Shown here: positions 40,608 through 43,255 of the stretch, one piece after another | Layout of the letters: each line of letters opens with the position of its first letter | How positions within the stretch are numbered: the first letter of the stretch is position 1 | From: Paraburkholderia sartisoli | GTDB lineage: Bacteria; Pseudomonadota; Gammaproteobacteria; Burkholderiales; Burkholderiaceae | Assembly (NCBI RefSeq): GCF_900107685.1 | Contig: NZ_FNRQ01000005.1 | Span: 1-64,000 of the forward strand | DNA: 64,000 bases | Direction: 5' to 3' | Notes under the pieces: generated by a model | Databases searched by the model: none | What the model saw: only the letters and a program-made list of their open reading frames with translations | Told to the model about the DNA's origin: nothing | Program-made: the position numbers and the translations under genes

Positions 40608-41189
40608 ATGATGAATCGTCCTGTCCTGTCTGCGTTGCCGCCCGGTCTTTCCTCGCTTTCGGCTCACTGGGGATGGCTCCTGCTTCGTGGCATCGTCGCG
40701 ATCGTTTTCGGCGTGCTCGCTTTCCTCTGGCCCGACCTGACGTTAGCCACGCTGGTGATCGTGTGGGGCGCCTACGCCGTCGTCGATGGTGCATTTGCGC
40801 TGGTGTACGGCATCGGTGGCGCGGGCAACCGGCGCTGGATGTATGTGCTGGTCGGGCTGACCGGCATACTCGCCGGGCTCGCCGCGCTCTTCTGGCCCGG
40901 CACCGCGGTCATCGTTCTCGTGATGATCATCGGCTACTGGGCATTTATCGTCGGCGTCTTCGAGATCATTTACGCGATCCAGTACCGTCGCGCGCAGGCG
41001 CACCCCTGGCTGATCGGCCTGTCGGGATGCCTGTCGGTCGTGATCGGCCTGCTCATCGTGATGTGCGTCTATCCGGTGGGCGTGCTGTCGGTGGTATGGC
41101 TCATCGGCAGCTATGCGATCGTGTACGGCATCCTGATGACGCTCGCGGCCATCCAGCTGCGACGTTTCCAGCGCCGGCTGACGGCTTGA
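40608..41189 (+). CDS. HdeD-family membrane protein (DUF308)
   Basis: 193-residue membrane protein of the HdeD/DUF308 family with six hydrophobic helices, for example GWLLLRGIVAIVFGVLAFLW, LATLVIVWGAYAVVDG and LIGLSGCLSVVIGLLIV. E. coli HdeD is linked to acid resistance at high cell density, but the role here is not established. GGGAGA precedes the ATG. It stands alone between slmA and the metX leader. Confidence 0.86.
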   Translation: MMNRPVLSALPPGLSSLSAHWGWLLLRGIVAIVFGVLAFLWPDLTLATLVIVWGAYAVVDGAFALVYGIGGAGNRRWMYVLVGLTGILAGLAALFWPGTAVIVLVMIIGYWAFIVGVFEIIYAIQYRRAQAHPWLIGLSGCLSVVIGLLIVMCVYPVGVLSVVWLIGSYAIVYGILMTLAAIQLRRFQRRLTA

Positions 41190-41344: not shown

Positions 41345-41436
41345 ACGCGCCGATTTGCTGACTCGATTGCGGGCGCGCGAACTGCCGGGAGGGTTCCCGG
41401 GGTTCACTACAAATGCGGCTAAAGAGGTCGTCAGCC
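41345..41436 (+). ncRNA. SAM-II-like (SAM-alpha) riboswitch before metX
   Basis: CGCGC (41346-41350) pairs with GCGCG (41373-41377) as P1, enclosing the conserved GATTT. Downstream, ACAAATGCGGCTAAAGAGG (41409-41427) closely follows the SAM-II consensus AAATG-R-GCTAAA-R-GG. The loop sequence GCTGAC (41357-41362) pairs with GTCAGC (41430-41435), giving the H-type pseudoknot. An extra hairpin CCGGGA/TCCCGG flanked by GAAC/GTTC is inserted between P1 and the AAATG block. SAM-II elements are known upstream of metX in proteobacteria. Binding SAM would sequester downstream sequence and lower metX-metW expression. Confidence 0.8.
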
Positions 41437-41504
41437 GCGCATCACGTCTCTTCGCGCATCGCCGACACCATCTAGCCGTCCAGAGTCGTTAAAAGGCGGA
41501 ATGA

Positions 41505-42650
41505 ATGGAATCGATCGGCATCGTCGCTCCCCAGAAAATGCATTTCTCCGAGCCGCTGCTCATGCAGAACGGCAGCTCGCTCGCCGGTTACGACCTGATG
41601 GTCGAAACCTACGGCACGCTCAACGCCGCGCGCAGCAACGCGGTGCTCGTCTGTCACGCGCTCAACGCGTCGCATCACGTCGCGGGCGTCTATGCGGATG
41701 ACCCGAAGGACGTCGGCTGGTGGGACAACATGGTGGGCCCGGGCAAGCCGCTCGACACGAATCGCTTCTTCGTGATCGGCGTGAACAATCTCGGCTCGTG
41801 TTTCGGCTCGACGGGCCCGATGAGCATCGATCCGTCGACACAGCAGCCCTACGGCGCGCGCTTTCCGGTCATCACCGTCGAAGACTGGGTGAACGCGCAG
41901 GCGCGCGTCGCCGACGTGTTCGGCATCGAGCGCTTTGCCGCGGTGATGGGCGGCAGCCTCGGCGGCATGCAGGCGCTGGCGTGGAGCATGATGTACCCGG
42001 AGCGCGTCGCGCACTGCATCGTGGTCGCGTCGACGCCCAAGCTCTCCGCGCAGAACATCGCGTTCAACGAAGTGGCGCGCTCGGCGATCCTGTCGGACCC
42101 GGACTTCCACGGCGGCAACTACTACGCGCACGACGTGAAACCGAAGCGCGGCCTGCGCGTCGCGCGGATGATCGGCCACATCACGTATCTCTCCGACGAC
42201 GACATGGCCGCGAAGTTCGGCCGCGCGCTGCGCCGCGCGGAAGGCGCGCACGATGCGTACAACTTCAACTTCGACGTCGAGTTCGAGGTGGAGTCGTATC
42301 TGCGGTATCAGGGCGACAAATTCGCCGACTATTTCGACGCGAACACATATCTGCTGATCACTCGCGCGCTCGACTACTTCGATCCGGCGAAAGCGTTCGA
42401 CGGCGACCTGACGGCCGCGCTCGCGCACACCACGGCGAAATACCTCGTCGCGAGTTTCTCGACCGACTGGCGTTTCGCGCCCGCGCGTTCGCTCGAACTG
42501 GTCAAGGCGCTGCTCGATCACAAACGCACGGTGACGTACGCCGAAATCGACGCGCCGCACGGCCACGACGCCTTCCTGCTCGACGACGCCCGCTATCACA
42601 ACCTGATGCGCGCCTACTACGAACGCATTGCCACCGAGGTACACGCATGA
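41505..42650 (+). CDS. metX: Homoserine O-acyltransferase MetX
   Basis: First committed enzyme of methionine synthesis, acylating homoserine. It has 381 residues and an alpha/beta-hydrolase fold. The nucleophile serine is in [10 protein letters not shown], and the histidine of the triad in [24 protein letters not shown] is the oxyanion region. Some MetX proteins of this bacterial group use succinyl-CoA rather than acetyl-CoA; sequence alone does not let me decide. The stop overlaps the metW start (ATGA). The leader holds a SAM-II-like riboswitch. Confidence 0.94.
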
Positions 42651-43255
42651 ACCAGCGCGCGCTCGATTATCTTGTGACGCGGCCCGACTTCCGCGCGATT
42701 GCCCGCTGGGTCGAGCCGCGCTCGACGGTGCTCGATCTCGGCTGCGGCGACGGCTCGCTGCTGTCGCTGCTCACGGAAGAACTCGAAGTGTCCGGCTACG
42801 GCATCGAGATCAACGACGCCGGCGTGCTCGCGTCGACGAAAAACGGCGTCAACGTGATCCAGCAGAACCTGGAAGACGGCCTGCGTCTCTTCGAGGACGG
42901 CAGCTTCGATTTCGCGATCCTGTCGCAGACGCTCCAGACGATCCACCAGACCGCCGCGATCCTGCGTGAGACGGTGCGCGTCGGCAAGGAATGCATCGTC
43001 TCGTTTCCGAACTTCGGCTACTGGTCGCACCGGCTTTCGGTGTTGCAGGGTCGGATGCCGGTTTCGAAATCGCTGCCGTTCCAGTGGCACAACACGCCGA
43101 ACGTGCGCGTGCTGACCATCAAGGATTTCGAGGCGCTCGCGCCGGAAGTCGGCATCGAAATCCTCGACCGCGTGGTGCTGCACGGCGGCCAGGCGGTCCG
43201 TTGGGGCGAGAACTGGCGTGGTAGTCTTGCGGTCTATCGGGTCAAGAAAAGCTAA
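42647..43255 (+). CDS. metW: Methionine biosynthesis protein MetW
   Basis: 202-residue SAM-binding-fold protein always found after metX in many proteobacteria. It has the methyltransferase motif [13 protein letters not shown] and a SQTLQTIHQ segment typical of MetW. It is thought to be needed for MetX activity rather than to be a free methyltransferase. It starts four bases inside metX, so expression is coupled and probably shares the leader control. Confidence 0.94.

Follow-up and report, generated by a model that had tools for sequence, protein, structure and literature searches.

SAM-II riboswitches (Rfam family RF00521, SAM_alpha; Corbino et al. 2005, PMC1273637) precede methionine genes and combine a P1 helix, a GAUUU loop, a UUGC strand paired in the GC-UA-AA arrangement, a CUAAA core and a pseudoknot, and their compact members carry 3 to 7 nt between P1 and the core. 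Two SAM-II riboswitches that act on translation, one from S. meliloti (metA) and one from the Sargasso Sea (metX), have their Shine-Dalgarno sequence within the pseudoknot or beside it (PMC9373788). The SAM-II long-loops family (RF01726; Weinberg et al. 2010, PMC2864571) is a length variant that needs a model of its own and comes from Bacteroidetes and marine sources. SAM-V (Poiata et al. 2009) is also a pseudoknot with translational control; its crystal structure (PMC6061858) contains a P1 of 4 pairs, a 3-bp P3 stem-loop directly 3' of P1 and then a strand that runs along the minor groove of P1 as an A-stack, and the authors of that structure listed P3 as absent from SAM-II (PMC6061858). The presence of SAM-II in beta-proteobacteria was already mentioned by Barrick and Breaker (2007), and a Burkholderia RNA, Cand287, with homologues before methionine genes was confirmed by RT-PCR (Khoo et al. 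2012). Leyn et al. (2014; PMC4239095) described "metXZ" as a novel RNA element of beta-proteobacteria, present in 8 of 8 Burkholderia genomes and equipped with a terminator and antiterminator; in that work, SAM_alpha was confined to two alpha-proteobacterial orders.

The metX leader of Paraburkholderia sartisoli lies in the window (the whole stretch of DNA analysed here, 64,000 nucleotides), in the gap between an ORF that ends at 41189 and has no NCBIfam match and the metX start at 41505. It has all of the SAM-II features listed above, but differs from SAM-II in that a hairpin of 27 nt separates P1 from the core, the start site lies about 70 nt downstream and the switch strand is a separate one; a distant strand is thus proposed as a relay, in contrast to the Shine-Dalgarno placement in the S. 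meliloti and Sargasso Sea examples, with which the leader shares predicted translational control. With SAM-V it shares a P3 directly 3' of P1 that is followed by an A-rich strand, a pseudoknot core and, again as a prediction, translational control; its P1, however, has 6 pairs, its P3 is longer, and it belongs to other lineages. Like the SAM-II long loops, it is a length variant that escapes the standard model, although from different organisms. The leader and the metXZ element, matched by description rather than by base-level alignment, are almost certainly the same: both are located upstream of metXW and form a pseudoknot from conserved regions, although SAM-II was not recognised in that work and the terminator described there is absent in the Burkholderia group. 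The features of the locus are as follows.

41346 to 41377, plus strand: P1 helix of 6 bp, CGCGCC (41346-41351) with GGCGCG (41372-41377), from sequence and alignment
41352 to 41356, plus strand: GATTT, loop L1, invariant in 30 of 30 same-genus leaders
41360 to 41362, plus strand: GAC pseudoknot extension, partner GUC at 41427-41429
41367 to 41370, plus strand: UUGC, the 5' strand of the putative P2, with partners G41418, C41419, A41422 and A41423, kept in compact and extended members
41379 to 41405, plus strand: inserted hairpin P3, from folding and covariation
41406 to 41414, plus strand: L3 strand ACTACAAAT, with AAAT conserved
41415 to 41429, plus strand: aptamer core and putative P2 3' strand GCGGCUAAAGAGGUC, with CUAAA at 41419-41423, from the alignment
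41430 to 41435, plus strand: GTCAGC, six-base partner of GCTGAC at 41357-41362
41463 to 41481, plus strand: proposed switch strand CGACACCATCTAGCCGTCC, from conserved pairing, RNAalifold and accessibility
41495 to 41507, plus strand: ribosome-binding region GGCGGAATGA and metX ATG (41505-41507), from the ORF and a MetX match that begins at residue 3
41505 to 42650, plus strand: metX, homoserine O-succinyltransferase type (NF047916, 684 bits, cut-off 560)
42647 to 43255, plus strand: metW, overlapping the metX end (TIGR02081, 266 bits, cut-off 189.5)

Every element named in the original prediction, which read this leader from its letters as a SAM-II-like riboswitch, is found in the sequence with coordinates off by about 1 base; the conserved core block AAATGCGGCTAAAGAGG is present at 41411-41427, and the anticipated SAM-II context before metX is confirmed by the NF047916 match, followed by metW. 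In 30 aligned same-genus leaders, the aptamer is nearly invariant (GCGGCUAAAGAGGUC varies only in one C/T), while the hairpin that runs from GAAC to GTTC changes in both sequence and length. In a more diverse set of 69 members, 97.1% of the P1 cells are paired; the outermost pair varies on both sides, the inner 5 are invariant, and further compensated variants, such as AACGCC/GGCGTT (L136), are found outside that set. Compensatory changes, which had been proposed as a check on both P1 and the six-base pseudoknot, are rare in the former (1 of 6 pairs varies on both sides) and were not seen in the latter. The P2 pairing is too invariant for a covariation test, its sequences being present and conserved, and the single-sequence folding energy (z of -0.75) is uninformative. 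By analogy, pairing of UUGC in the GC-UA-AA arrangement would form the P2 pseudoknot, GATTT would be expected to provide the third strand of the SAM-binding triplex, as in the SAM-II and SAM-V structures, and the L3 strand should occupy the minor groove of P1, similarly to the A-stack that follows P3 in SAM-V (PMC6061858).

At its cut-offs, Rfam detects a tRNA and nothing else in the window. When the threshold is relaxed, SAM_alpha aligns with no more than the P1/L1 half of the leader, scoring 13.6 bits where 36 are required (E of 1.3 in a 361-base search), so the covariance-model score is not significant, an outcome that, taken literally, the original prediction had named as speaking against itself. 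However, a covariance model built from the 30 same-genus leaders (R1, extended members only) also matches loci from other parts of the order to which RF00521 gives scores above its cut-off (G138:C1, G215:C5, G173:C68, G134:C1 and G133:C22), and because the two models match common loci, the leader aptamer is homologous to SAM-II. A compact member from the same family receives 31.1 bits from SAM_alpha, which misses the P3-bearing members; together with the R1 matches to SAM_alpha-called loci, this makes the insert the most likely cause of the Rfam miss. The compact elements share GCGCCGATTTG...TTGCGGGCGC...AAATnnnGCTAAAG, with 3 to 7 nt in place of the hairpin, and GCTAAAG is common to the leader and the loci called by RF00521. 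The SAM-II-type reading is thus supported by the motifs, by homology to accepted members and by the methionine-gene context.

The SAM-V model (RF01826) has no match in the leader at E values up to 10 or in 20 loci of relatives at E values up to 1, and the SAM-II long-loops model has none in the leader, the window's genome or 40 relatives; both were rejected as the family of this element in view of these results. A match to Pyrobac-1 was rejected as a chance hit. The leader does have the P3 stem-loop directly 3' of P1 that marks SAM-V, and since this P3 is present and covaries, against the published absence of P3 from SAM-II (PMC6061858), the leader is best described as a SAM-II variant. Its identity as SAM-II is solid by homology, its ligand is very likely SAM, and its mechanism is a prediction. 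A derived pseudoknot that responds to another ligand, such as SAH, or regulation of the leader at the DNA level by a protein such as MetR, would be in line with the Rfam score below cut-off and with the published assignment of MetR regulons to 7 of 8 Burkholderia genomes (PMC4239095). Both are very improbable: the core nucleotides that contact SAM in SAM-II and SAM-V (CUAAA, GAUUU and UUGC) are unchanged, the element stands in sense orientation before methionine genes, and a DNA site does not explain why the P3 pairing is kept while its sequence changes.

The P3 hairpin consists of an outer stem, GAACT (41379-41383) with GGTTC (41401-41405), and an inner stem, CCGGGA (41385-41390) with TCCCGG (41395-41400), closed by a loop at 41391-41394; GAAC (41379-41382) and GTTC (41402-41405) flank the inner stem. 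It folds in nearly all of the 30 same-genus leaders despite their variation in sequence and length. In the 69 diverse members, 96.5% of the cells in the basal helix are paired, and 4 of its 4 pairs change on both sides, producing such variants as GAAC/GTTC, GAGC/GCTC, GAAT/ATTC and GGCA/TGCC. The covariation score for P1 and the hairpin base is 0.307, whereas shuffles give 0.093 +/- 0.010 and slid partners no more than 0.064; the alignment used was fitted to the model, the pair changes nonetheless being visible by eye. A stem of at least 4 bp is found in 95% of the inserts versus 27% of shuffled ones. The hairpin reported at this site is therefore genuine, and it is indeed unusual when compared with the few nucleotides that compact SAM-II members have there; the suggestion that it is a lineage-specific extension did not hold, similar hairpins being found in other beta-proteobacterial families and in Legionella. 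In terms of secondary structure, the site of P3 is that of the SAM-V P3, the open end of P1, and judging from the published structures P3 would be far from the expected ligand site.

The pairing conserved across the family is that of GAC (41360-41362) with GUC or GUU (41427-41429), complete in 94 of the 96 distinct elements. The longer six-base pairing of GCTGAC with GTCAGC, put forward at the outset as the pseudoknot, is complete in 65 of these 96 and broken in the Trinickia-, Pandoraea-, Cupriavidus- and Ralstonia-type members, so that this part of the claim applies to some genera only. AGCCGC at 41433-41438 can also pair with GCGGCU of the core (41415-41420), with 98.3% of the cells paired in 71 leaders; this local hairpin overlaps GTCAGC and competes with the pseudoknot. 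As GTCAGCCGC includes the AGCCGC that complements the core, its conservation has two possible causes.

Termination of transcription, intrinsic or Rho-dependent, before or within metX would be the output expected from the proposal of Leyn et al., who reported terminators downstream of the beta-proteobacterial metXZ elements and counted the element in 8 of 8 Burkholderia genomes (PMC4239095). Terminators are present in most compact loci and in most extended loci of the Cupriavidus and Ralstonia type, and in 23 of 43 compact loci the terminator complements the aptamer over at least 6 bp, compared with 8% of shuffles. However, the leader in the window has no intrinsic terminator on its plus strand, and neither does any of the 81 loci (71 distinct leaders) from this genus and four sister genera. 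On these grounds, control by an intrinsic terminator was rejected for the window, and a SAM-II element with P3 that acts through termination is unlikely here. An apparent minus-strand terminator at 41438-41415 was also rejected, being the reverse complement of the core.

The alternative output, control of translation, centres on the proposed switch strand at 41463-41481, which could pair either with the core (41415-41423 and 41427-41430, ON) or with 41495-41499 and the start-codon region 41503-41508 (OFF). The pairing with the core, which is selected by RNAalifold, forms a 9-bp helix in relatives (P of 0.002 to 0.014) and contains one mismatch in the window (P of 0.10). In the alignment of five genera, 97.1% of the cells are paired for the core partner and 94.6% for the ribosome-binding site, compared with 16 to 46% for slid partners; no double changes in the switch helices were seen in the same alignment. 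When the core is locked, the mean probability that the AUG is unpaired drops from 0.47 to 0.06, in folds calculated without pseudoknots or co-transcriptional folding. The shift in accessibility of the start region is 0.164, versus 0.019 +/- 0.084 for shuffled spacers, with a P of 0.08 for the window alone, and in some leaders (L003 and L006) the minimum-energy fold with the core free still hides the start site. The contiguous length of the OFF helix is no better than chance per locus, so that the OFF pairing is based on conservation and the accessibility test.

Under the proposed mechanism, at high SAM levels P1, the L1 triplex strand and P2 would fold into an H-type pseudoknot that buries the core GCGGCUAAA, leaving the switch strand available for pairing with the ribosome-binding site and the AUG and decreasing metX translation. 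Without SAM, either the switch strand or the local AGCCGC would capture the core, with the start site becoming more accessible. The start site could, instead, be controlled only by the AGCCGC hairpin or by P2, with the 41463-41481 segment kept for other reasons, e.g., as a site for an RNA-binding protein or an sRNA, as might be suggested by the near-universal AGCCGC/GCGGCU pairing and by long switch helices that show no double changes. Such an arrangement is improbable: about 60 nt separate the end of the aptamer from the ribosome-binding site, too great a distance for P2 to cover that site directly, and the shared complementarity of the switch strand persists across five genera. The reading that we favour, and consider probable from these models, is a SAM-II riboswitch with P3 that serves as a translational OFF switch. 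As for its parts, the metX leader is very likely to be an OFF switch, its control is quite likely to be exerted at translation, and the exact shared-strand mechanism has an even chance of being correct.

The leader is present in 37 of 37 same-genus genomes searched (the MetX proteins of P. gardini and of the window are 97% identical), and R1 finds it in 235 of 300 genomes, representing 16 of the 25 genera of the family. SAM_alpha detects its targets in 87 of 200 genomes of the order and in none of the 6 sampled from the window's family. A pattern search of GTDB genomes retrieved at least 117 stretches with a P3-type extension; among the matches listed are those from Paraburkholderia, Caballeronia, Burkholderia, Trinickia, Cupriavidus and Ralstonia, as well as Pandoraea, Mycetohabitans, Pararobbsia, Undibacterium, Methyloversatilis and Legionella. 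The presence of such hairpins in Undibacterium, Methyloversatilis and Legionella means that the extension is not Burkholderia-specific. The genes located 3' of the P3-bearing elements, among the matches listed, are mostly metX, with some metZ, metN and metH, all in sense orientation.

P3-bearing SAM-II-type leaders before a gene for a metN-like ABC transporter were observed in Legionella spp. and in Legionellales/Tatlockia MAGs (L186, L224, L245, L255, L265 and L271); the best NCBIfam match of the Legionella MetN is TIGR02314 (362 bits, below the cut-off of 500). Two MAGs (L199 and L257) carry a P3-type SAM-II leader and a terminator before metH. Some genomes from other Burkholderiales families (e.g., G046, G126, G139 and G072) encode a compact element and, elsewhere, a P3-bearing copy (L046 and L083 versus L087, L091, L102 and L107). 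A MAG labelled Alistipes senegalensis contains an element of the beta-proteobacterial type (L203) and a metX that is 70% identical to that of the window; this bin is probably mislabelled or contaminated.

The P. sartisoli genome itself contains a second SAM-II-type leader (L175, G000:C16:221092-221269), located before metZ, which encodes O-succinylhomoserine sulfhydrylase. This leader has a terminator and, where P3 would be, a GGG-GCAA-CCC mini-hairpin, similarly to L166 to L174. RF00521 has no match to it and R1 matches it weakly (13.6 bits, E of 0.05), so its assignment comes from motifs read by eye and from the gene context. The Rfam family RF02424 (Bp2_287 sRNA) matches the same locus on the opposite strand with 141 bits; the "sRNA" assigned by Rfam to this locus is therefore an antisense reading of the SAM-II-type metZ leader, and the RF02424 family appears to model the antisense strand of the metZ riboswitch.

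The literature open to text search, few subscription journals among it, describes neither a P3-bearing SAM-II nor a translational platform of this kind. Tentatively, P3 could be a recurrent, separately gained module of a single SAM-II/SAM-V superfamily, whose classes would differ by modules and not in kind, and in the Burkholderia group a translational platform could have taken the place of the terminator, built on a single 19-nt strand that switches partners between the core and the ribosome-binding site plus start codon. The finding of P3 here makes one of the structural differences listed between SAM-II and SAM-V less sharp. Since the inserted P3 probably breaks the Rfam model, SAM-II riboswitches may well be under-annotated in beta-proteobacteria and Legionella. 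The metX leader of the Burkholderia group, which in 2014 was an unassigned RNA element, now has a likely ligand, SAM, and a class, SAM-II, and its relatives provide a natural series for a change in riboswitch output, from compact elements with a terminator, to those with P3 and a terminator, to those with P3 and a predicted ribosome-binding-site hairpin.
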